Source: an uncultured beta proteobacterium (lineage in GTDB: Bacteria > Pseudomonadota > Gammaproteobacteria > Burkholderiales > Burkholderiaceae_C). From it: 52,711 nt of DNA. Below are positions 13,322 through 52,711 of the stretch, piece by piece (position 1 is the first letter of the stretch; every line of letters begins with the position of its first letter). The notes beneath the pieces were generated by a model. The model saw nothing but the letters and a program-made list of their open reading frames with translations. It ran no database searches and was not told the origin of the DNA. The DNA is taken from positions 1 through 52,711 of the forward strand of contig CAIVLG010000085.1 of assembly GCA_903906695.1 (NCBI GenBank), in the 5' to 3' direction. The translations under genes and the position numbers were made by a program.

Positions 13322-16213
13322 ATGGCCTCAGCAGCAATCTTGCGCCCATCCCCTCAAAACACCATGACCAGAATGCCCCGATCCAACTCACTCCCAAGTC
13401 GCCAGGACAATGAGCGCCCGCTGCTGCAAGACATCCGGCTGCTGGGACGCATCCTTGGCGACGTCATACGTGAGCAGGAAGGCGTTGCCGCCTTCGAACT
13501 GATCGAGCAAATCCGCCAGTTGTCGGTGGCTTTCCATCGCGACGCCGACAGAGACGCCGATAAGTCTCTGAAGAAATTGCTGAAAGGTCTCAGCAACGAT
13601 CAAACCGTTAGCGTGATTCGGGCCTTCAGCTACTTCAGTCACCTGGTCAACCTGGCCGAAGACCGGCATCAGATCCGTCGCCGCGCGATCCACGAACGCG
13701 CCGGCGAGGTGCAGCCGGGAAGCATCGAAGCGGCCCTGCTGCGCTGCCGTCAGGCCGGCATCGCCCCCGAGCAGATCGTGGCTACCCTGGAGCGCAGCTT
13801 CGTCTCGCCAGTGCTGACCGCGCATCCGACCGAAGTGCAACGCAAGAGCATTCTGGACGCCGAGCGTGCGATTGCCGAGTTGCTCAGCACTCGGGACGAC
13901 ATCAAAATCAGGGCTGCCCCGGGCAAGCACGAGAAGGACGCGTTGACACCACGCGAGCTGGCCGACAACGAACAGCAGATGCGCGGCCGCATTTCGCAGC
14001 TCTGGCAAACCCGGCTGCTGCGCCTGTCCAAACTGACGGTGGCCGACGAGGTCGAAAACGCCCTGAGCTATTACGAAGCGACGTTCCTGCGTGAAATCCC
14101 GAAGATCTATGCCAACCTGGAGCGTGAGCTCGGCCATCACCCGGTGCACAGCTTTTTGCGGATGGGGCAGTGGATCGGTGGCGACCGCGACGGCAATCCC
14201 AACGTCAACGCGCAAACGCTGGTGTTGGCGCTGCGCCGCCAGGCCGAGGTGGCACTGCGCCACTACCTGACCGAAGTGCATTTGCTCGGTGGCGAGTTGT
14301 CGCTCTCGACACTGCTGGCGAACTGTCTGCCACAGATGCGTCAACTTGCCGAGCAATCGCCCGACCGCAATCCGCACCGCCAGGATGAGCCTTACCGGCG
14401 CGCCCTGATTGGCGTCTATGCGCGGCTCGCAGCCAGCCTGAAAGACCTGACCGGGGGCGAAGCCGCACGCCATGCGGTGGCACCGCAGAATCCCTACGCC
14501 AACGCGCAACAGTTACTGGCCGATCTGCGCACGGTGGAGGCCTCATTGCTTGCGCATCATGGCGCTGCCCTGGTCACGCCCAGATTGCAGAGCCTGATCA
14601 GGGCGATCGAGGTCTTCGGTTTTCATCTGGCCAGCGTGGATTTGCGCCAAAGCTCGGACCAGCATGAAGCCGTGCTGGCCGAACTGTTTGCGACCGCGCG
14701 GCTGGCGCCGGCTTATGCCGAGCTCGATGAACAAGCCAAGCGCAGCCTGCTGCTGGGGTTGCTGAATGACGCGCGGCCACTGCGCGTCCTGGGCGCCGTC
14801 TATTCGGCCAAAACCGTGAGTGAACTCGCCATTTTCGAAACCGCCAAAGTCATGCGCGAGCGCTTTGGCGACGCGGCGATTCGCCACTACATCATCAGCC
14901 ACACCGAGTCCGTCAGCGACCTGCTCGAAGTCCTTCTGCTGCAAAAAGAAGTGGGCCTGATGCAGGGAACCATGGACGCCGATGCGCGTTGCGACCTGAT
15001 TGTGGTGCCGCTGTTTGAGACCATCGCGGACCTGCGCAATGCCGAGCCCATCATGCGCGAGTTCTACGCCCTGCCTGGCGTGCGTGCGCTGGTGCAGCGC
15101 GGCGGTCATGACAAGTACTGCGAACAGGACATCATGCTGGGCTACTCCGACAGTAACAAGGACGGCGGCATCTTCACCAGCAACTGGGAGCTTTACCAGG
15201 CGGAGATCGCGCTGGTAGCGCTTTTCGACGAGTTGAACGGCCCCGACGCTGGACCGACCCAAGCGCTGCGACTACGGATGTTTCACGGCCGCGGTGGCAC
15301 TGTCGGGCGCGGCGGTGGACCGAGCTACCAGGCGATCCTGGCGCAGCCGCCGGGCACCGTGCGCGGCCAGATGCGGCTGACCGAGCAGGGCGAAGTCATC
15401 GGTTCCAAATACGCCAACCCCGAGATCGGTCGACGCAACCTCGAAACCCTGGTCGCCGCCACGCTGGAGGCGACCTTGCTGCAACCGACCAAATCAGCGC
15501 AGCCATCCTTCCACGATGCGGCCTCCGAACTCTCCAGCCACAGCATGGCGGCCTACCGCAAACTGGTCTACGAGACTGCGGGTTTTACCGAGTACTTTTT
15601 TGACTCGACGCCGATCCGTGAAATCGCCGAACTCAACATTGGTTCGCGCCCGGCTTCACGCAAGTCCTCCCAGCGAATCGAAGACCTGCGCGCCATTCCC
15701 TGGGGCTTCAGCTGGGGCCAGTGCCGCCTGACACTGCCCGGCTGGTTCGGCTTTGGTTCTGCGGTGGAACGGTTTCTGCAAAACCAAGGTGGCGCCGGCA
15801 GCAAGGAGCGGTTGAAATTGCTGCAACGCATGTACCGGCAATGGCCCTTCTTCAGCACACTTCTTTCCAACATGGACATGGTGATGGCGAAAAGCGATCT
15901 GACATTGGCCAGACGCTACGCCGAACTGGTTGCCGACGCGCGTTTGCGAAAGAAGATATTCAGCGCAATCGAGCTCGAATGGCATCACACAGCCACCGCA
16001 CTCGGCAGCATCACCGGCGACACGCAGCGCCTGAGCCACAACGCGGTGCTGCAACGCTCAATTCGCCATCGTTTTCCCTATATTGATCCGCTGCATCATC
16101 TGCAAATCGAGCTGGTACGTCGTCACCGAGCCGGCCAGTCCGATGCGCGCATTCAACGCGGCATCCACATCTCGATCAACGGCATTGCCGCCGGGCTCAG
16201 AAACACGGGTTAG
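13322..16213 (+). CDS. ppc: Phosphoenolpyruvate carboxylase
   Basis: A PEP carboxylase of about 963 residues that fixes bicarbonate onto PEP to give oxaloacetate, an anaplerotic step. Visible signatures are [13 protein letters not shown] (catalytic His), [34 protein letters not shown] and the conserved C-terminal NTG that folds into the active site. The ATG at 13322 has a weak GGGA upstream; an ATG at 13364 would remove 14 poorly conserved residues and cannot be excluded. The last 17 bases overlap the end of the convergent response-regulator gene. It is divergent from hemC, a common pairing in Burkholderiales. Confidence 0.97.
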
Positions 16214-44666: not shown

Positions 44667-45352
44667 GGCCATCGGGCGGCATGCTGCAGCACACCGTCTT
44701 GCAGTGTCATGCAACAGTCCATGCTGGAGAGCAATTCCGGCTCATGCGAGATCACGATCAGGGTAGCGCCCTGCGACTTCACCAGATTCAGCAGCAGCGC
44801 GCCGATCTGGTGCCGGTGATCGGGGTCCAGACTTGCGGTCGGTTCATCGGCCATCACGATCGTCGGTTGCAGCAGCAAGGCCCTCGCCAGTGCCACTCTT
44901 TGGCGCTCACCGCGTGACAGCAAGGCAGCCAGCCGATCGAACGCAGTGATACCGACCGCAGCCAGCAAATCGCGGGCACGCTGGCGCACTGCAGCTGCGG
45001 GTTTCCAATGGTCGAAATAGGTCGGCAACAGCACGTTGTCGAGCGCACTGAGCCCGTCAACCAGATGAAAGTCCTGAAACACGAGCCCCAGTTGCTCATG
45101 GCGCCAGCGCCCCACGGCATCGTCGGCCAGCGCGCAGATGTCGGTGTCGCCCCAGAAGATCTGTCCGGCGGTGGGTTTTGCGATGCCGGCCAGGCAGTGA
45201 AACAGCGTGGTCTTGCCGGCCCCCGACACGCCGCGGATGCCCAGGCTGGCGCCCTCTGACAATTCGAGTGAGGGCAAAGCAAAAAGAGGTTTCTCCTGCC
45301 CGGCGAACTGCAACACCAGTTCATGCACGCGCAAATCACCCCTGAGCTTCAC
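44663..45352 (-). CDS. ABC transporter ATP-binding protein (MacB/LolD-like)
   Basis: A 229-residue ATPase: Walker A GVSGAGKTT (about 42-50), Q-loop LGLVFQDFHLV, signature LSRGERQRVALARAL (a variant of LSGGE), Walker [14 protein letters not shown] and switch His in VISHEPE. Its family partners FtsX-type permeases, here the next gene, with a four-base stop/start overlap. It also overlaps the DUF3299-like gene upstream by four bases, so all three are translated together. Confidence 0.93.
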   Translation of the reverse strand: MKLRGDLRVHELVLQFAGQEKPLFALPSLELSEGASLGIRGVSGAGKTTLFHCLAGIAKPTAGQIFWGDTDICALADDAVGRWRHEQLGLVFQDFHLVDGLSALDNVLLPTYFDHWKPAAAVRQRARDLLAAVGITAFDRLAALLSRGERQRVALARALLLQPTIVMADEPTASLDPDHRHQIGALLLNLVKSQGATLIVISHEPELLSSMDCCMTLQDGVLQHAARWP

Positions 45353-45825
45353 AGCTTGGAGACCTCTGCATCGACAATGCGAACCTGACTGACAAAGCCG
45401 GACTGCGGGTCGGTCCAGGAGCCCATTTCCAGCTTACCAGCCACTTCGATGCGTTGGGAGAAGCTGACCGGGCCGAGCACGCCTTTGAGGTAAATCACCA
45501 CGATGTCCACCGGCCACTCGGCATCCGATGAGCAGAACGGGCAGACCGCCACCGGCTCGCGCGTCAACACAAAGAACTTGCTCTCGGGCTTGATCGGCGG
45601 CGCCATGTAGCCGCGCATGCGAATGCTTCTTCCCTTGAGCAGTTTGGCGCGCTCGGAATATTGAATCCCGAGCACGCCGACCGATTTGTAGAGCGTATCA
45701 AAGCTCAGCAGCGTATCCAGACTCACCTCGCCTGCGGCCTCGCTGCGGGCGGCCCAGAACAGCAGCGGCGTAAATAAAAAAGTCCGGCGAAGGCATTCGC
45801 CGGACCCAAGTCTGATCAAGGACAT
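45349..45825 (-). CDS. DUF3299-like exported protein
   Basis: A 158-residue protein with a probable signal peptide (RRTFLFTPLLFWAARSEA) and an OB-like domain: LKGRSIRMRGYMAPPIKPE, then FFVLTREPVAVCPFCSSDAE (C95, C98), and FSQRIEVAGKLEMGS. This layout follows DUF3299, with CPFC where others have a Cys-His-Pro stretch; the two Cys may bind metal. DUF3299 proteins are typically neighbours of FtsX-type ABC transporters, as here. The ATG shares one base with the phoA stop (TAATG). Its first codons contain a strong intrinsic terminator (45771-45805). A later GTG in GEVSLD would drop the signal peptide, so the start is not fully certain. Confidence 0.7.
   Translation of the reverse strand: MSLIRLGSGECLRRTFLFTPLLFWAARSEAAGEVSLDTLLSFDTLYKSVGVLGIQYSERAKLLKGRSIRMRGYMAPPIKPESKFFVLTREPVAVCPFCSSDAEWPVDIVVIYLKGVLGPVSFSQRIEVAGKLEMGSWTDPQSGFVSQVRIVDAEVSKL
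45771..45805 (-). terminator. Strong intrinsic terminator after phoA, inside the DUF3299-like ORF
   Basis: On the minus strand GTCCGGCGAA and TTCGCCGGAC form a perfect 10-bp stem around a 4-nt loop, followed by TTTTTTATTTA. This is a textbook rho-independent terminator 20 bases after the phoA stop. It overlaps the codons for about residues 7-18 of the next ORF, so phoA transcripts should mostly end here and the ABC genes should depend on read-through. Confidence 0.85.
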
Positions 45826-47615
45826 TACTTCTTGTTTGCTTTCGGAATTGCGCCCTGCTGCGGCGCCAAAGCCAAGGCTTCAGCCATGATGCGGAACAAC
45901 TCGCTGTTTTCCATCTGGCCGTGCACTTTTTGCGCACCCGGTCCAACGGCCGTCAGAATCACGTCGTCGCCCGAATGAACGCCGCTGTTGGAGGCGCGCG
46001 CACCCTTGTTCGGCAGATTGCCTTCGCGCAGCACGGCTCCGGGAACGTCCTTGTATCTTTCGTTGGCGACCATAACACCGTCGGCACTGCGAATCGTCGG
46101 AACAAACTCGCCATCCATAAAGGGCCTGTAAGTGTCGTAGTGATCAGGGTAGGCGCCAAAGGTCAGGCGCAACCGGCGCGAGACATCCACCTTGTTCGGG
46201 TAGCCCTCGGCATCAGGTGCCGGATAGTTGGGAAAGCCGGCCTGCTCGTAGACGCCGACCTTGTTGCGCATCTCGACCCCGGGCTCGTCGTCGTTGACCG
46301 TGCCGATCACACTGACCGCGTGCGAGTGGTCCGACGTCACCAGAATCAGGGTATTGTTGCCATGCGCCTTGGCCCAGTCCTTGGCCTGCTTCACCGCAGC
46401 GTCGAGCATGATGGTGTCGTAGATGGAGCGCTCCGGGTCCAGTGAATGCGAGTACTTGTCGATGCGTGCGCTCTCGACCATCAACACAAAGCCGTTCTTG
46501 TTGCGCGACAGAATCTTCAGCGCCGCGGCCATCTCTTCGGGCACATCGGGCTGGTCCGGGAATTTGGCTACCGAGCCCTTTTTCAGGAACTTCAGGTCCA
46601 GCGCACCATCGACATTACCGGTGTTGTAAAGCCCCAGCAGCTTGGTCGTTTTTGCGTCGTCGACGGCGGCCAGCATCTCCGACTTGGTGATCGCAATGCG
46701 GTAATCGGCTTGCTTGAAGCGATCGATGTAATCGACCTCGTCGCTGCGCTTGGAACCTGCGGTTGACTTGGGCAAGAAGTTGGGTGAGCCGCCGCCCATC
46801 ATGACGTCGATCTTGCTGTCGTAAAACATCTTGACGATGTCGTTGAAGTCGGAGCGTCGGCGCGTGTGCGCCACCATGGCGGCCGGCGTCGCATCTTCGA
46901 TTTCGGAGTTGGTAACAGCGCCAACGGCCATGCCGCGTCGCTTGGCCAGTTCGGTAATGGTCTCGACTTTCGGGTGATCGAGTGTGTTGGCCGCACGTGA
47001 GCAGTAAACGCCCAGCGCGTTGACGCAGGACTTGTGGCCGGTGGTGTAGGCATGCGCTGCGTTGGCGGAGTCGGTGATGATGGAGTCAGTGCCCTGCGTC
47101 GTCAGCAAAGCCATGTAGGGCATATCGTCGAGCGCCAGCTTGCCAGTGTATTTACCGCCCTCGATGCTCCGGGACAGGATGCGCGCGGCCGTGCGGTGGC
47201 CGATCGAAAAGCCGTCGCCAACGAAAAGAATCACGTTTTTCGCCACGCGCTTGGCCGGCGTGGCATAGACGCTCCAGTTCACGGACTTGCTGGTCTTGCC
47301 GTCACTGGCGGTCACGGTGTACGACCCCGGCCTGCCCAGGCTGGCATCACGCAGCAGCAGGCTCGACACTTCCTTGCCGTCTTCACGGGCCAGCAACTCG
47401 GCCGACTTGCCCAGCACCTTGCTGTAATCCTGCCCGTTGATGGTGACCTTGATCTGCGCCGGATCGACCACGCTGTCGAATTCCACCTTGAAGTCAAAGT
47501 GCGAACCGGAAAGGATGTCGGCGCGGGTCAGCGGGAAGATGGTCTGAGCGGCACAGGTGGCCGAAAACACTGCGGCACAAAAGGCCACGGTGACGGAAGC
47601 GGTCTTGAAACGCAT
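45825..47615 (-). CDS. Alkaline phosphatase (PhoA superfamily)
   Basis: A 596-residue secreted enzyme. A Sec signal peptide (MRFKTASVTVAFCAAVFSAT, cleavage near CAA-Q) is followed by an Ig-like N-terminal domain (about 25-118) and the catalytic domain: LFVGDGFS (D134, metal), TDSANAAHAYTTGHKS with nucleophile S183, VESARIDKYSH and LVTSDHSHA for metal ligands. It releases phosphate from phosphomonoesters in the periplasm or outside. It is longer than E. coli PhoA because of the N-terminal domain, so I give no symbol. A Pho box and -10 lie upstream, a terminator downstream, and the next gene starts on its stop codon. Confidence 0.93.
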   Translation of the reverse strand: MRFKTASVTVAFCAAVFSATCAAQTIFPLTRADILSGSHFDFKVEFDSVVDPAQIKVTINGQDYSKVLGKSAELLAREDGKEVSSLLLRDASLGRPGSYTVTASDGKTSKSVNWSVYATPAKRVAKNVILFVGDGFSIGHRTAARILSRSIEGGKYTGKLALDDMPYMALLTTQGTDSIITDSANAAHAYTTGHKSCVNALGVYCSRAANTLDHPKVETITELAKRRGMAVGAVTNSEIEDATPAAMVAHTRRRSDFNDIVKMFYDSKIDVMMGGGSPNFLPKSTAGSKRSDEVDYIDRFKQADYRIAITKSEMLAAVDDAKTTKLLGLYNTGNVDGALDLKFLKKGSVAKFPDQPDVPEEMAAALKILSRNKNGFVLMVESARIDKYSHSLDPERSIYDTIMLDAAVKQAKDWAKAHGNNTLILVTSDHSHAVSVIGTVNDDEPGVEMRNKVGVYEQAGFPNYPAPDAEGYPNKVDVSRRLRLTFGAYPDHYDTYRPFMDGEFVPTIRSADGVMVANERYKDVPGAVLREGNLPNKGARASNSGVHSGDDVILTAVGPGAQKVHGQMENSELFRIMAEALALAPQQGAIPKANKK

Positions 47616-47646
47616 GGCGTAGGTCCGTAGTTGATGGAACCGAGCC

Positions 47647-47680
47647 AGTCTAGTGGGTTGGTGTGAACCAATTGTGACAG
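47647..47680 (-). promoter_or_regulatory. Pho box and -10 upstream of the alkaline phosphatase gene
   Basis: On the minus strand CTGTCAC, AATT, GGTTCAC (47663-47680) has the 7+4+7 Pho-box layout; the first half matches 6 of 7, the second is weak. TAGACT, a fair -10 element, lies 10 bases after it, the same geometry as at pstS. Confidence 0.55.
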
Positions 47681-47723
47681 TTTCGGGACAATTCGGCGTT
47701 CACCGTCAGGGCCCGGGGCAGCC

Positions 47724-47749
47724 GCCCTGTCAGGGCGCGTACTTGGCAA
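47724..47749 (-). repeat. 26-bp direct repeat, left copy (end of the restriction-modification insert)
   Basis: This 26-bp sequence is identical and in the same orientation to 50543-50568. It holds the palindrome GCCCTGTCAGGGC and the reverse complement of codons for AKYAP-stop, the C-terminus of the hexapeptide transferase. It therefore is a displaced copy of that gene's 3' end, separated from it by the restriction-modification genes. It starts 5 bases after the restriction gene's stop. Confidence 0.9.
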
Positions 47750-47754
47750 TCAGG

Positions 47755-48852
47755 TCATTGCCCTGGAGTGCAATCGGCAGTCCTCAGACTTGACAAGTGA
47801 ACCAGAAGATCAGGTTCTGTCCTGAACCACACGTACGAGTTATAGGCAAGCTGGCTGAAGTTCTTCTTGAATGGCGCGGCATCCCGGTCTTCATAGGCCG
47901 TGACAAAGGTGACGTGAGACAAAGGGATTCGTGATCGCTCAATCAGTTGAATGAGTGCTTCTCGACGCGCTTCTGTGATCGGTCCATCTGTTGCCACCAC
48001 TTCACAAAAAACGAATTTCACGGGCCTGGCCATGTCCGCCAGGATGACATCCGGTAACTCGGCATTCAGATCGAACCGAAGTCCTACCGTTGCAGCCAGT
48101 TCAACGAATTGCGGATACGATTTCTTGTCCGAAGCACTCAGCCAAAGAACTTCCGGTGCCTCAAGGTGCTTTTGTGCGTACTGCTCGATAACGTCTTTGG
48201 CAATGAGCGCGGATGGCCCGGCTGAAACACGTAAGCGTGCACCGTCGGGCATCTCGATGAATACATCACCTTCTCTTCTCTGAATCCCGCCGGCTCGAAG
48301 CGCCATTCTCTGAAGCGTGCCTGCATCAAGCGCTGCTGTGCGCCACTTCGCAATGGCCTGATCAAGCGCTCGCCCCTTGAGTCCGAAGTCAAATAACGCG
48401 GCAAAATCTTTATCAAGGTACCAGATTGGCGTGCTGGAGGTCACTGCAACACCAGCTTGCTTGTGCGCAATGCCCAAACGAAGCATGGTGTTGCGCATCA
48501 GGTCATCACGAATGGATTCCCTACTGTTGTCGGCATACCAGCGCCGTCCAAGAGGACGGAACCCTGGTTTGCCAGCGTCCCTGCGCCACTGCACACGCTC
48601 GTTCTGAGAAGTCTTTTCTTCTTGCTCGCCAGTAAAAAAATAGACGTGGCTTGGCCGCAGACAGTGGCCGCTGCCTTCAATAAAATCGCCGTAGAGAAAT
48701 ACATAGACCACACGGACCGCCATGCTCCCCACCAGGATGCGCCGATCAGCGAAGGCTTCTGGAAATATTCGCTTAAGGCGCTCCTGAACCTCCTTGAGCG
48801 GCACGAGCGCCTGCATACCGCGGTCAACCAAAGTCGTGATTGTTTTACGCAT
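47755..48852 (-). CDS. Type II restriction endonuclease, PstI/BsuBI family
   Basis: A 365-residue protein matching the BsuBI/PstI restriction family. The C-terminal third has VLWLSASDKKSYPQ, then LNAELPDVILAD (PD at 267-268) and FVFCEVVATDGPI (E284), the PD-(D/E)XK-like core of PstI. PstI and BsuBI cut CTGCAG; this member may or may not keep that site. It lies downstream of its methyltransferase and overlaps it by 8 bases, so the modification enzyme is made first. Lower GC than the flanks and a 26-bp direct repeat around the pair point to horizontal acquisition. Confidence 0.9.
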   Translation of the reverse strand: MRKTITTLVDRGMQALVPLKEVQERLKRIFPEAFADRRILVGSMAVRVVYVFLYGDFIEGSGHCLRPSHVYFFTGEQEEKTSQNERVQWRRDAGKPGFRPLGRRWYADNSRESIRDDLMRNTMLRLGIAHKQAGVAVTSSTPIWYLDKDFAALFDFGLKGRALDQAIAKWRTAALDAGTLQRMALRAGGIQRREGDVFIEMPDGARLRVSAGPSALIAKDVIEQYAQKHLEAPEVLWLSASDKKSYPQFVELAATVGLRFDLNAELPDVILADMARPVKFVFCEVVATDGPITEARREALIQLIERSRIPLSHVTFVTAYEDRDAAPFKKNFSQLAYNSYVWFRTEPDLLVHLSSLRTADCTPGQ

Positions 48853-50374
48853 GGAGTGAGTCTACCGCTCGCTCCAATGAAAAGGGTAAACCGAGCACTT
48901 GCGCGACCACTTCGTCAATCACCTCTGGCGACGAACGGGGTTTCAAGATGGCGCCAATCTCTTCCAACTCGGTCATGGAGGGAAGTGGCAATAGCCGCAA
49001 GTCGGAGGCGTTGACCTGCGTGTGACCGCTGACCGCCTGAAAATATTCACTGACACTCTGAGTATTCAAAAACGCCGCGAGCCCAGCCACCTCTTTAGCC
49101 GACATGGCGCCACCCGGTCGACTGATGTAATTCAGATGGTTTTCGATGCCTACAAAAGAACCGGGCAAGTCTGCGAAATAGGGCGCCGCCGTCACCCGTC
49201 GCGCATCTTCTTTTGGACTGAACCGGCGCAAGATAACCATCGGTTCGTTTTTCAACAGCATCCATGCGTTTTGCACGCGAACAGAAATGTGCTCTCGCTT
49301 CTTCTTGATGGGCCACTCGATGGCCATCGACTTGACATGCTGCAGCCACAGCAGCGGTACAGAATCAACCGCCACTTCATGCCGCAGAAAAGCCGCAGCA
49401 CGAAATGCCACCACGGGCCCGGTCGAAACCTTGAGACCATGGCTGGCAAAGGTGTTGGTCAACCTCGAAGATACCCCACTCTTTTCAGGAGACGGCAAAC
49501 GAATGACCCTCGCACTCAAGGAACTCACCAAAAGTGACGGCGCCACGTGCTGAACCTGCGCCGTGTCCAAATCATCCGCGCCGTAGCTGGTGCTGAGCGC
49601 GATGGGCCCTTCTTGAGCGAGCGCCGTACCCCAGATGATGGCCGCCTCCTGAAGCACTTCATCTCCGGAAAAGTGAGCACACCGACTGTCGAATACGTGG
49701 ATACCGTCAAGCCTGAGATGCGCCAGAAGGTGACGGCGCACAGCCGAAAAATAGGGACCGCTCATCCACGAACGTGGCGTGATAAAGCAATACCTGCCAC
49801 CGGTGCGCAACAAGCCGCAACACGCTGCCATGAACAAACCATAAATGTTGGGCTGTCCCCAGACCGAGTAGGAATGCGCTGTGACACGAGGATCGAGTTT
49901 GCCCAGCTTGAAATAAGGAGGGTTGCTCATGACGAGGTCGACCAATGGCTTTTGTTCACGGGCAGTAGCCGATAGAAGAAAATCTTCATTGGCAACGACA
50001 TAGTCAAGATCGACCCCCTGCGCGGTGCATTTCACTTTGAGAGAATCGCACACGTATCGCAGGCCGGGGATCAGTCGCACATCAATCTCATAGAGCAGCA
50101 GTTCTATCCTACGCGGGGTATCCGCTGATCCGAGCAGAGCATCAACGGCTGTTGCTGCGAGGACGCCAGAGCCGGCCGCCGGCTCAAGTATCCTGACGGT
50201 AGCGGCGCCCAACCCCTGTACCGCACGCCGCGCCATGAACTCCGCGATTGCCGGTGGCGTCATGTACTGCCCTAAGGCTTTTTGCTCGGTCTTTGTGATT
50301 GAGCGGGATGCCGCAATGCCATTGACATAGGCATGGTTGGCGCTGTCGGCATGCGATGGAAATTCGAAGAGCAT
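48845..50374 (-). CDS. Type II N6-adenine DNA methyltransferase (PstI/BsuBI/Eco57I-like)
   Basis: A 509-residue gamma-type adenine methyltransferase: QKALGQYMTPPAIAEFMARR (motif X), ILEPAAGSG (motif I, 62-70, AdoMet), YEID (motif II), MSNPPYF (motif IV, 149-155, catalytic). The C-terminal half is the target-recognition region. With the overlapping restriction gene it forms a complete type II system; if specificity follows PstI it would methylate the A of CTGCAG. The ATG at 50374 has no Shine-Dalgarno, but a sigma-70-like promoter with an overlapping inverted repeat lies about 25-55 bases upstream. GC is visibly lower than in the flanking phn and phoA genes. Confidence 0.92.
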   Translation of the reverse strand: MLFEFPSHADSANHAYVNGIAASRSITKTEQKALGQYMTPPAIAEFMARRAVQGLGAATVRILEPAAGSGVLAATAVDALLGSADTPRRIELLLYEIDVRLIPGLRYVCDSLKVKCTAQGVDLDYVVANEDFLLSATAREQKPLVDLVMSNPPYFKLGKLDPRVTAHSYSVWGQPNIYGLFMAACCGLLRTGGRYCFITPRSWMSGPYFSAVRRHLLAHLRLDGIHVFDSRCAHFSGDEVLQEAAIIWGTALAQEGPIALSTSYGADDLDTAQVQHVAPSLLVSSLSARVIRLPSPEKSGVSSRLTNTFASHGLKVSTGPVVAFRAAAFLRHEVAVDSVPLLWLQHVKSMAIEWPIKKKREHISVRVQNAWMLLKNEPMVILRRFSPKEDARRVTAAPYFADLPGSFVGIENHLNYISRPGGAMSAKEVAGLAAFLNTQSVSEYFQAVSGHTQVNASDLRLLPLPSMTELEEIGAILKPRSSPEVIDEVVAQVLGLPFSLERAVDSLHA

Positions 50375-50399
50375 GGTTTTGAATTACGTCAGTTGCCAT

Positions 50400-50429
50400 T
50401 ACTGTACAAATTAACAGTAGACTTGGCAA
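50400..50429 (-). promoter_or_regulatory. Methyltransferase promoter with overlapping palindromic operator
   Basis: Minus strand: TTGCCA (-35, 50424-50429), a 17-bp spacer, TACAGT (-10, 50401-50406). An inverted repeat TACTGT-N8-ACAGTA (50400-50419) covers the -10 and half the spacer, a position that would block RNA polymerase. It may be an autoregulatory site for the methyltransferase or a host regulator. A second palindrome, TGCCAATTGGCA, is at 50459-50470. Confidence 0.6.
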
Positions 50430-50542
50430 GCAAAAAAAGCATCCGCAAGGAAAAGCGCTGCCAATTGGCAACATTTCCCCGATGGGTGGTGTTCAATTGT
50501 TTTGCCGGCAACGCCATGCAGCTTGCGATCAACGATAAACAA

Positions 50543-50568
50543 GCCCTGTCAGGGCGCGTACTTGGCAA
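50543..50568 (-). repeat. 26-bp direct repeat, right copy (3' end of the hexapeptide transferase gene)
   Basis: Identical to 47724-47749 in the same orientation. Here the sequence is the native 3' end of the transferase gene: its last codons, stop and the trailing palindrome GCCCTGACAGGGC, which may act as the gene's terminator. The two copies bound a 2.8-kb segment that carries only the restriction-modification pair and its promoter. Confidence 0.9.
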
Positions 50569-51196
50569 GAAAAGTACGCAAATCCTTGAAATCCGCCATC
50601 CGCTCGGTCAGCGTCTCATGATCCCAGTCCCACCAGGCGGTGGCTTCAATGGCCTCGGCGATCGCCCTCGGAAAACGTTGGCGTAGCACTTTGGCCGCCA
50701 CACCGCCGACGATGGCGTAGGCTGGAACGTCCCTGGTCACCACCGAGTTGGAGCCCACCACGGCACCATTGCCAATGCGCACGCCCGGCATGATGACAGC
50801 ACCATGACCAATCCAGGTGTCATGGCCAATCACCACACGCTGCCGACGACGCCAGGCAAAGTAGTCAGCGTCATCATCTTTCGCCATGCCGTACATTTTG
50901 CGCCGGTACATGAAGTGGTGCAGCGTCGGCCGCTCCATCGGGTGAAAGCCCGGGTTGATCCGCACCATGGCAGCGATATTGGCGAACTTGCCGATGTCTG
51001 CCGACATCAGGTCACAGCCGCTGCCGAGGTAGGAATAGTCGTCCAGCAAACAGTCTTCCATTCGCGACAGCTCTCCAACCTGGGTAAAGCGGCCGAAGCG
51101 GCAGTCGCGCACAACGGCGCTTGCCGCCAAGGTCGGGCTCAGGCCGAGTTGAACGGCAGGCGGAAGGTTGTAGGACTCGATGTGGGTATGACGCAT
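50549..51196 (-). CDS. Phosphonate-operon hexapeptide-repeat acyltransferase
   Basis: A 215-residue left-handed beta-helix protein of the xenobiotic/chloramphenicol acetyltransferase type, with hexapeptide turns such as [36 protein letters not shown] and [23 protein letters not shown]. It resembles the phosphonate-metabolism transferase family that lies beside C-P lyase genes (TIGR03308 type). It probably acetylates a phosphonate or related compound, but the substrate is unknown. It follows phnM by 24 bases. The stop lies within the 26-bp repeat that bounds the restriction-modification insert; the gene itself is intact. Confidence 0.88.
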
Positions 51197-51220
51197 GGCA
51201 TGCCTGTTGATGCAATGGTT

Positions 51221-52363
51221 TCAATAGACCCGCTTGCCGGCGACCCAGGTCTCCATCACCGTAGGCATGCCAGCGCGGTTCATGCGCACCCGCAGCAGGT
51301 CAGCACGCTGTCCCACCGACAGTTCGCCACGGTCTTGCAGGCCAATGGCACGGGCCGGGTTGCGTGTCACCGTTCTTACCGCCTTGGGCAGCGTCCACTG
51401 TGCCAGATGACCCAGCATGAAGACGGCGAGCAACAGACTGGAGGGAACGTAGTCGGACGAAAAGATGTCCAACAGATCGGCCTGCGCCAATTCGGCGGCA
51501 GATACGTTGCCCGAGTGCGAGCCGCCTTTGACCAGGTTGGGCCCGCCCATGATGATGGCCATGCCGGCCTCGCGCGCAGCCTGCGCTGCGGCCAGTGTGG
51601 TTGGAAATTCGGACATGACTATGCCCTCTTCAACTGCTTGAAGCACGTCTGTTACCAGCGTGTCATCATGGCTGGCTAGCGGAAGACCTCGTGCCCTGCC
51701 GGCCTCCACAATGGCCTGACGATGCGGCACCGCATAGGCCTGCTGGTCGGCCTTGCGCTGCGCAATCATGGCATCAAACACTTCGTCACTGAAACGCTCA
51801 TTGCGCTCGGCGTAGCGGCGATAGCTCTTCAAGTTGCGCCATTGGCGCTGCCCCGGCGTGTGATCCATCACGCTGACCAGTTTCAGCAAGGGGTCATCAG
51901 CATACTGGTTGAATACTTCAAGAATGTCGGGGACCGAGATTTCACAGCGCAGATGCAGCAGGTGATCGATGCGCAACAACCCTTCGTCGCGGCATTGATG
52001 CAAGGCGGCAATCGAGGTGTGCTGGGTCTGCGCCCGCGCACCGCCCTGATCCAGGTCGCCGATGACCACTGAATCAAGCACTGTGGTAATGCCGGCGGCC
52101 GCGCATTGCGCGTCATGCACCACCATGGCGGAATGTGCGTTCCACAATACGCCGGGCCGCGGGGCCAGGTGCTTCTCCAGGTTGTCGGTGTGCAACTCCA
52201 CCAGGCCCGGCAGCAGCCAGTCGCCCGCCCAGTCCTCGGCATCAACGACCGAGGCAGGACCCGTGGCGATGGAACGAATGAGTCCGTCTTCCATTACCAG
52301 GCTGCCGGTGAACTCTTCGTCGTTCGTCACGATAACGGCGTTTTGAATGATGCGTCGAGTCAT
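51221..52363 (-). CDS. phnM: Alpha-D-ribose 1-methylphosphonate 5-triphosphate diphosphatase PhnM
   Basis: A 380-residue amidohydrolase-fold enzyme of the C-P lyase pathway that removes pyrophosphate from ribose 1-methylphosphonate 5-triphosphate. Features include the metal-binding [18 protein letters not shown] near residue 56, HNATLHD-like [19 protein letters not shown] and [18 protein letters not shown]. It overlaps phnL by four bases (ATGA), so the two are co-translated. The rest of the phn operon lies to the right, outside the window. Confidence 0.95.
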
Positions 52364-52711
52364 GTTGTGCTTCCCTGTGTGTGTGCTACCGTTTTGCCGT
52401 AGTGCTCGACGTTCAATGAGCGCGTAGCCACCGCTTCACGCACTTCGTCGTCATGGAAGATGCCCACGACGGCGCTGCCCTGCTCACGCGCTGCGCGAAT
52501 CAGGTCCACCACCACACGCCGGTTATCGGCATCGAGCGAGGCGGTCGGCTCGTCCAGCAGCAGGACCGCCGACGCGGTGATCATGCCGTGCGCGATATTG
52601 ACGCGCTGCTGCTCACCGCCGGAAAACGTGGCCGGTGGCAAATGCCATAAATGCTCCTGCAGGTTCAATCTCTGCAACCATTGCGCGGCCCTCAAGCGTG
52701 CCTCGTCGGCA
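52360..52711 (-). CDS. phnL: Phosphonate C-P lyase system protein PhnL, C-terminal fragment
   Basis: The last 117 or so codons of an ABC-type ATPase; the N-terminus and Walker A are beyond the right edge. Visible are the signature [16 protein letters not shown], Walker [13 protein letters not shown] and the switch His in [19 protein letters not shown]. PhnL is part of the C-P lyase core machinery together with PhnG-K. Identity rests on these motifs and on phnM following with a four-base overlap. Confidence 0.9.

Follow-up and report, generated by a model that had tools for sequence, protein, structure and literature searches.

Does a clean direct repeat around a restriction-modification pair record the insertion of that pair? 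The question was raised by a 52,711-bp contig of an uncultured beta proteobacterium (CAIVLG010000085.1, taken at its whole length and called the window here), in which an endonuclease gene and a methyltransferase gene lie behind a phosphonate-metabolism transferase gene, between two exact copies of a 26-bp sequence. A preliminary description took the repeat for an insertion footprint. We compared the locus with those of related genomes, including a Rhodoferax metagenome-assembled genome (isolate STA_46; G078), the nearest relative carrying the same pair. Although the pair looks mobile, an insertion footprint is not the best reading of the repeat. The best explanation, which taken as a whole has about an even chance of being right, would make the repeat the scar of a secondary rearrangement rather than a trace of insertion, whether site-specific or target-duplicating, and the operon would be repressed by LexA. 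A clean repeat flanking a restriction-modification pair need not record an insertion, and one suitably distant relative alters the reading. The probable SOS control of the pair is the more interesting feature.

The repeat and the corresponding locus in a related genome

The features of the locus were as follows.

45825..47615, minus strand: alkaline phosphatase gene (phoA), found by profile search, downstream of the left repeat copy
47713..47723, minus strand: 11-bp stretch separating the left copy from the phoA leader conserved in a relative (G006)
47724..47749, plus strand: left repeat copy, TTGCCAAGTACGCGCCCTGACAGGGC when read on the minus strand
47750..47787, minus strand: 38-bp stretch between the end of the homology to STA_46 and the left copy, holding the last 10 codons and the stop of the endonuclease gene
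47755..48852, minus strand: BsuBI/PstI-type restriction endonuclease, 365 aa (PF06616, E 1.5e-33; PF17728, E 1.2e-15)
48845..50374, minus strand: N6-adenine DNA methyltransferase, 509 aa (PF07669, PF02384; PADLOC MTase_II)
50375..50542, minus strand: transferase-methyltransferase intergenic region, homologous to that of STA_46 and diverged except around the operator described below
50543..50568, plus strand: right repeat copy, overlapping the final transferase codons, their stop and a 13-bp palindrome, GCCCTGTCAGGGC (50543-50555); the STA_46 counterpart has two mismatches
50549..51196, minus strand: phosphonate-metabolism hexapeptide transferase (TIGR03308)

The two copies were identical at 26/26 positions and lay on the same strand, 2819 bp apart from start to start, exactly as first described. 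No other exact direct repeat of 18 bp or longer was present in the window, where about 1e-6 exact 26-mer pairs were expected under an independent, identically distributed base model. The final 6 bp of the right copy, 3' of the transferase stop, are CAGGGC. This hexamer is also part of the left copy, which ends a few bp from the endonuclease stop.

The pair of STA_46 (89% amino acid identity for the endonuclease, 88% for the methyltransferase) stood directly behind the same transferase gene, and window positions 47788-51618 aligned with this locus as a single block at 82% identity. The alignment took in TGA-CAGGGC-T.GTTT, the intergenic DNA and the methyltransferase promoter. The transferase-pair junction is common to the two genomes. 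STA_46 has no left copy: the 26-mer matches only its transferase end. Its phoA lies 12 kb from the pair.

Among 89 genomes of the genus, near-full-length close homologs of the endonuclease were found in two, the window's own and STA_46, with partial, distant matches in four more. The transferase gene was present in 20 genomes and was followed by the pair in 2/20. CAGGGC stood after the transferase stop in the window and STA_46 and in none of the 18 other transferase-bearing genomes. The hexamer was found only beside the pair, and it therefore goes with the pair. Since the left copy contains CAGGGC, this copy more likely came from the transferase-pair junction than from the native flank of the transferase gene. 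The right copy had been described as the native end of that gene. This stood for the last codons, stop and palindrome that it spans, but not for the hexamer.

These results bear on insertion with a long target duplication, by which the bare pair would have entered between adjacent transferase and phoA genes and duplicated a 26-bp target. The empty site would then hold one 26-bp copy and read TGA-CAGGGC-GGCTGCCCCGG straight on into the leader of phoA. The exact repeat close to the endonuclease stop would fit this, as would the sporadic occurrence, low G+C content and low synonymous difference of the pair (see below), and passages of PMC3031569, PMC1643837 and PMC3874152 describe restriction-modification genes that duplicate long targets. 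But in the first 110 nt behind the transferase stop, none of the 19 other genomes of the genus that have the gene, none of them from the window's own species, showed an empty site or ran into a phoA leader. Likewise, the pair of STA_46 occupies the same point with no left copy beside it, and the left copy of the window holds a hexamer that none of the 18 pair-free relatives has as its transferase flank. We considered such an insertion unlikely. The single-copy site to which the preliminary description looked for support did not turn up in these stretches, nor did the native transferase-phoA junction that it assumed.

Insertion of restriction-modification genes with target duplication was reportedly described by Nobusato et al. 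in 2000 and Furuta et al. in 2010. Like such insertions, the window locus has a bare pair, a flanking direct repeat and no recognised recombinase. Unlike them, its repeat is only 26 bp long, no empty site was found, and the pair of the sister species lacks a flanking copy. Target duplications are given in an excerpt of PMC3874152 as long (about 100 bp), or as short in units with imperfect terminal inverted repeats. A search confined to exact repeats found no inverted repeat of at least 10 bp between the 440-bp borders of the window pair.

The phoA side was examined in the same way. The gene was found in 15 of the 89 genomes, own included, and its leaders were compared in G090, G006, G089, G094, G085, G091, G003, G096, G078, G014 and G095; G054, G004 and G016 were left out, and the matches in G054 and G016 lacked the 5' end of the gene, so that the search for an empty site was not exhaustive. 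In G006, where no endonuclease match was found, the transferase gene and phoA lie on one contig in the same order, about 15 kb apart. Homology between the phoA leaders of G006 and the window starts 11 bp beyond the left copy.

Probable movement of the pair and proposed origin of the repeat

The synonymous difference (pS) between the window and STA_46 was 0.351 for the methyltransferase and 0.353 for the endonuclease. For 32 other orthologs it averaged 0.508 (standard deviation 0.069), and the pair ranked second and third lowest of the 34, below 31/32 of the others. The sample comprised the window and 20 stretches of its own genome against 60 stretches of STA_46 and the STA_46 locus. Open reading frames (ORFs) below 150 aa, rows with coverage below 80% or identity below 65%, and rows in which the nonsynonymous difference (pN) was not below pS were dropped.

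In a tree of the transferase (17 of the 20 rows; G098, G096 and G100 left out), the window sequence grouped with those of G016, G089 and G006 (support 92/90) and not with that of STA_46. None of these three genomes has an endonuclease match. Together, the low pS of the pair and the transferase tree moderately favour horizontal movement of the pair together with its junction. Some points weigh against this. One ortholog has a pS below that of the pair, whose z score is only -2.3, the 34 orthologs were sampled from part of both genomes, and the 92/90 support is moderate, under the star level of the program. That the pair is sporadic, lower in G+C content and probably mobile, as proposed from the window sequence, agreed with its presence in 2/89 genomes and its rank among the orthologs.

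Movement with the junction could also have produced the repeat directly. Homologous recombination would have brought in a donor transferase end with the pair, and the far end would have been joined illegitimately back at that gene end, with duplication of 26 bp. That pair and junction appear to have travelled together would agree with this, as would the last 27 transferase codons, where pS was 0.34, similar to the pair, against 0.50-0.59 in the rest of the gene, on only 17.7 synonymous sites. The process itself is known in three naturally competent species and in Escherichia coli, according to the abstract of PMC3240628. However, it predicts that the left copy should hold the recipient's own transferase end and flank, and what was found there is the pair-linked hexamer and identity to the right copy. 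This made such an acquisition improbable.

The secondary rearrangement that we prefer would have proceeded as follows. A PstI/SdaI-like type II operon occupies the 3' end of the gene for the phn hexapeptide transferase in at least two Rhodoferax species. It would have spread between lineages with the transferase-methyltransferase junction, that is CAGGGC, the intergenic DNA and possibly the last transferase codons. Later, and only in the window lineage, a rearrangement would have put phoA beside the endonuclease gene, and the new joint would have kept a 26-bp copy of the transferase-pair junction. This copy may be filler made by template switching, or the remnant of a tandem duplication of junction and pair that was followed by deletion. 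A single rearrangement, or tandem duplication plus deletion, would account equally for the repeat, the STA_46 locus and the phoA-leader homology.

The rearrangement was probably a deletion, because 12-15 kb separate the transferase gene and phoA in the two relatives that have them on one contig. We infer that the intervening DNA was lost and that copying went from the transferase-pair junction to the new joint. If half of the synonymous divergence of the pair (Ks 0.474) is put on the window branch and the copies are neutral, the probability of a 26/26 match is about 0.002, a rough value, with the right copy partly coding. This suggested that the copies arose after the two pairs had diverged. 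The footprint reading of the preliminary description was not supported: STA_46 has the pair behind the same transferase but lacks a left copy, and the window's left copy includes the pair-linked hexamer.

Several findings weigh against the rearrangement. The order of events comes from a single genome of the window's species, and the left border of the pair in STA_46 is itself rearranged, which could have removed an old left copy from that genome. G006 and STA_46 do not resemble each other at the nucleotide level in the DNA that separates phoA from the transferase gene. G089 has the two genes on different contigs, with phoA absent from about 106 kb downstream of the transferase gene, so that they are not generally linked. 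A search of the own genome gave the 38-bp stretch no source, only the 26 bp matching a second place.

Site-specific integration was also considered, with the 26-bp copies as att-like sites and an integrase acting in trans. The target would be a gene 3' end with a palindrome, which the insertion would have restored, and two lineages hold the pair at the same point. But, as first described, nothing between the repeats was recognised as a recombinase, the pair being the only sizeable genes there; nor was one recognised in the four neighbours tested, in a scan that left aside the smaller overlapping ORFs and the remainder of the window. At up to three mismatches, the 26-mer occurred in the own 4.42-Mb genome at two sites, the two copies, and among the 89 genomes of the genus only there and once in STA_46, at its transferase end. 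Viral contigs gave no exact 26-mer match, and folding of the stretches around both copies was no better than in shuffles (z 0.31 and 0.20). With the left site also missing from STA_46, integration of this kind is most improbable.

The joint between the endonuclease gene and phoA might instead be a misjoin at the 26-bp repeat. Exact repeats can cause assembly misjoins, and the genome is in 289 contigs. On the other hand, 26 bp is shorter than the k-mers usual at the end of an assembly. The transferase-pair junction was found independently in STA_46, but the endonuclease-phoA joint was not. We held an artefact to be very unlikely.

A LexA-type operator at the predicted promoter of the pair

One further feature lies between the transferase gene and the methyltransferase start.

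50400..50419, minus strand: perfect LexA-type operator, TACTGTTAATTTGTACAGTA (TACTGT-N8-ACAGTA), overlapping a promoter-like -10 of the methyltransferase-endonuclease operon

All arm bases of this site match (12/12), and it is identical at 20/20 bases in STA_46, with the intergenic DNA nearer the transferase gene clearly more diverged. An excerpt of PMC3108266 states that most beta- and gammaproteobacteria have CTGT-N8-ACAG for a LexA box. A lexA gene scored above the TIGR00498 cut-off in 5/5 genomes searched, own included. The lexA promoters, in 5/5 examined, carried a near-match, CTGG-N8-ACAG, a figure that stands without a control count.

The only other perfect site of STA_46 precedes imuA (NF033429 above cut-off), and a third site, with one mismatch, lies at C23 (L162). 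Both imuB and dnaE2 belong to the LexA-regulated imuA-imuB-dnaE2 operon. In the genus, CTGT-N8-ACAG was found within 250 nt upstream of imuA at 10/14 loci, or at 9/13 when the STA_46 locus was excluded, since the pattern itself had found that locus; seven imuA loci outside the genus were left out. As a control, 3 of 4260 segments of 280 nt in STA_46 contained the core. The window operon resembles LexA/SOS-regulated operons in having a CTGT-N8-ACAG core close to a start codon, as is seen at imuA of its genus.

SOS control of the pair is likely, because a perfect operator overlaps the predicted promoter, is identical in STA_46 and resembles the imuA operators of the genus. LexA probably represses the operon, and DNA damage probably induces it; we infer LexA binding from the sequence of the site. 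The case rests on the 12/12 arm match, the position in the promoter and the conservation. The mere presence of an operator is no evidence, because the 12-base pattern is rarer genome-wide than its reversed control.

The following points weigh against LexA control. One 16-bp core in a window of 52 kb is not unusual alone. Allowing up to one mismatch, the 12-base pattern gave 1 site against 13 reversed-control sites in the own genome and 3 against 6 in STA_46, with no genome-wide enrichment. Promoter-like matches in the operator region (2, against 1.7 in shuffles) were not commoner than by chance. The core was absent from four distant pair loci (L158, L165, L166 and L167), and imuA of the own genome lacked a perfect core within 250 nt.

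Upstream of this own-genome imuA (L168, upstream of position 1306), ACTGGATATCCATCCAGT stood in place of the CTGT-N8-ACAG core of the relatives. The LexA motif of the own genome may be shifting to CTGG.

Under direct LexA control, damage, phage infection or the pair's own cuts would cleave LexA and raise both enzymes, in a pair that spreads from species to species as a passenger of the 3' end of a phosphonate gene. We would put this full scheme neither above nor below an even chance. If it is true, restriction would be coupled to the SOS response and the pair would gain a feedback loop. How would cells with a damage-inducible nuclease, which comes with its own protector, escape self-cutting during the SOS response?

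If the operator works, it would be an instance of SOS control over a type II pair. In this the operon differs from LexA-regulated operons of the imuA type and from symE, the genes controlled here being a type II restriction-modification pair. The symE gene is placed under LexA in part of a 2013 review of restriction-modification regulation (PMC3874152), which, as far as its excerpts go, mentions LexA only in connection with toxin-antitoxin genes and with the SOS response in general. Among the matches listed in open-licence full text, by titles and abstract openings, none concerned LexA/SOS control of type II restriction-modification.

The enzymes, their neighbourhood and related pairs

The endonuclease and methyltransferase genes are co-oriented and overlap by 8 bp. 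Both family domains were present in the endonuclease (PF06616, 115.8 bits; PF17728, 58 bits; cut-off 27 for each), and its sole match among solved chains, at E up to 0.1, was SdaI (2ixs, E 1.2e-14). The methyltransferase scored 48 bits with PF07669 (cut-off 25.3) and 26.5 bits with PF02384 (cut-off 20.4). Its alignment shows an SNPPY stretch, which we take to be methyltransferase motif IV. As in BsuBI/PstI-family type II systems, there are both endonuclease domains, an adjacent amino-methyltransferase and overlapping genes, and the methyltransferase is presumably cognate to the endonuclease. The G+C content of 47750-50542 was 0.546, against 0.603 for 45000-47723 and 0.612 for 50569-52711, so that the lower value first noticed for the pair was confirmed. 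A PhnM gene neighbours the pair on the transferase side, and the alkaline phosphatase gene lies on the other.

CTGCAG, which with related sites is the candidate recognition sequence, occurred 181 times in 307 kb of the own genome (215 expected; rank 26 of 64 palindromes) and 409 times in 1.23 Mb of STA_46 (680 expected; rank 7). However, 33 kb of the pair-free G009 and G022 held 6 copies where 24.7 were expected.

The end of the STA_46 endonuclease gene abuts a 147-bp remnant that matches, at 93% identity, the 3' end of a DeoR-type gene some 8 kb distant, the label being a reading of the ORF without a family search. Between phoA and the pair of STA_46, a 352-bp direct repeat (87%) of the end of a transporter-permease gene (L058:13957-14308 and 15308-15659) flanks an endonuclease/exonuclease/phosphatase-like gene, these labels also coming from ORF reading. 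Repeat and remnant together suggested a tandemly duplicated, decayed uptake operon. The phnM-like gene beside the STA_46 transferase gene (L059:5419-6576) is 47% identical to the window phnM, and those of four pair-free relatives are 81-85% identical. It is possible that phnM was replaced within the phn operon of STA_46.

Further relatives of the pair were sought in collections that may omit records very close to the window. A broader scan of genome contigs gave a single locus with endonuclease relatives, that of STA_46. Of 399 genomes of the order, 11 including the own had an endonuclease match at E up to 1e-8 (best other 39%); in 399 genomes of the family, at E up to 1e-30, there were three including the own, the others at 57% and 46%. 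For the endonuclease, 78 stretches of viral contigs fitted a pattern and none was confirmed, and phages gave two weak partial matches. The methyltransferase matched 171 plasmid records, none of them at 60% or more; the best reached 49%.

The same two gene types are paired on plasmid pDSM1084 of Hydrogenophaga pseudoflava, in G581 and in G605. Unlike the four distant BsuBI/PstI-type loci, the window pair has a LexA-type operator in its promoter. No exact direct repeat of at least 11 bp was found between the 440-bp pair borders in these four loci or in STA_46. On pDSM1084 (L158:3908-7460), an extra N-6 DNA methylase gene lies directly behind the related pair, near relaxase and MobC genes.

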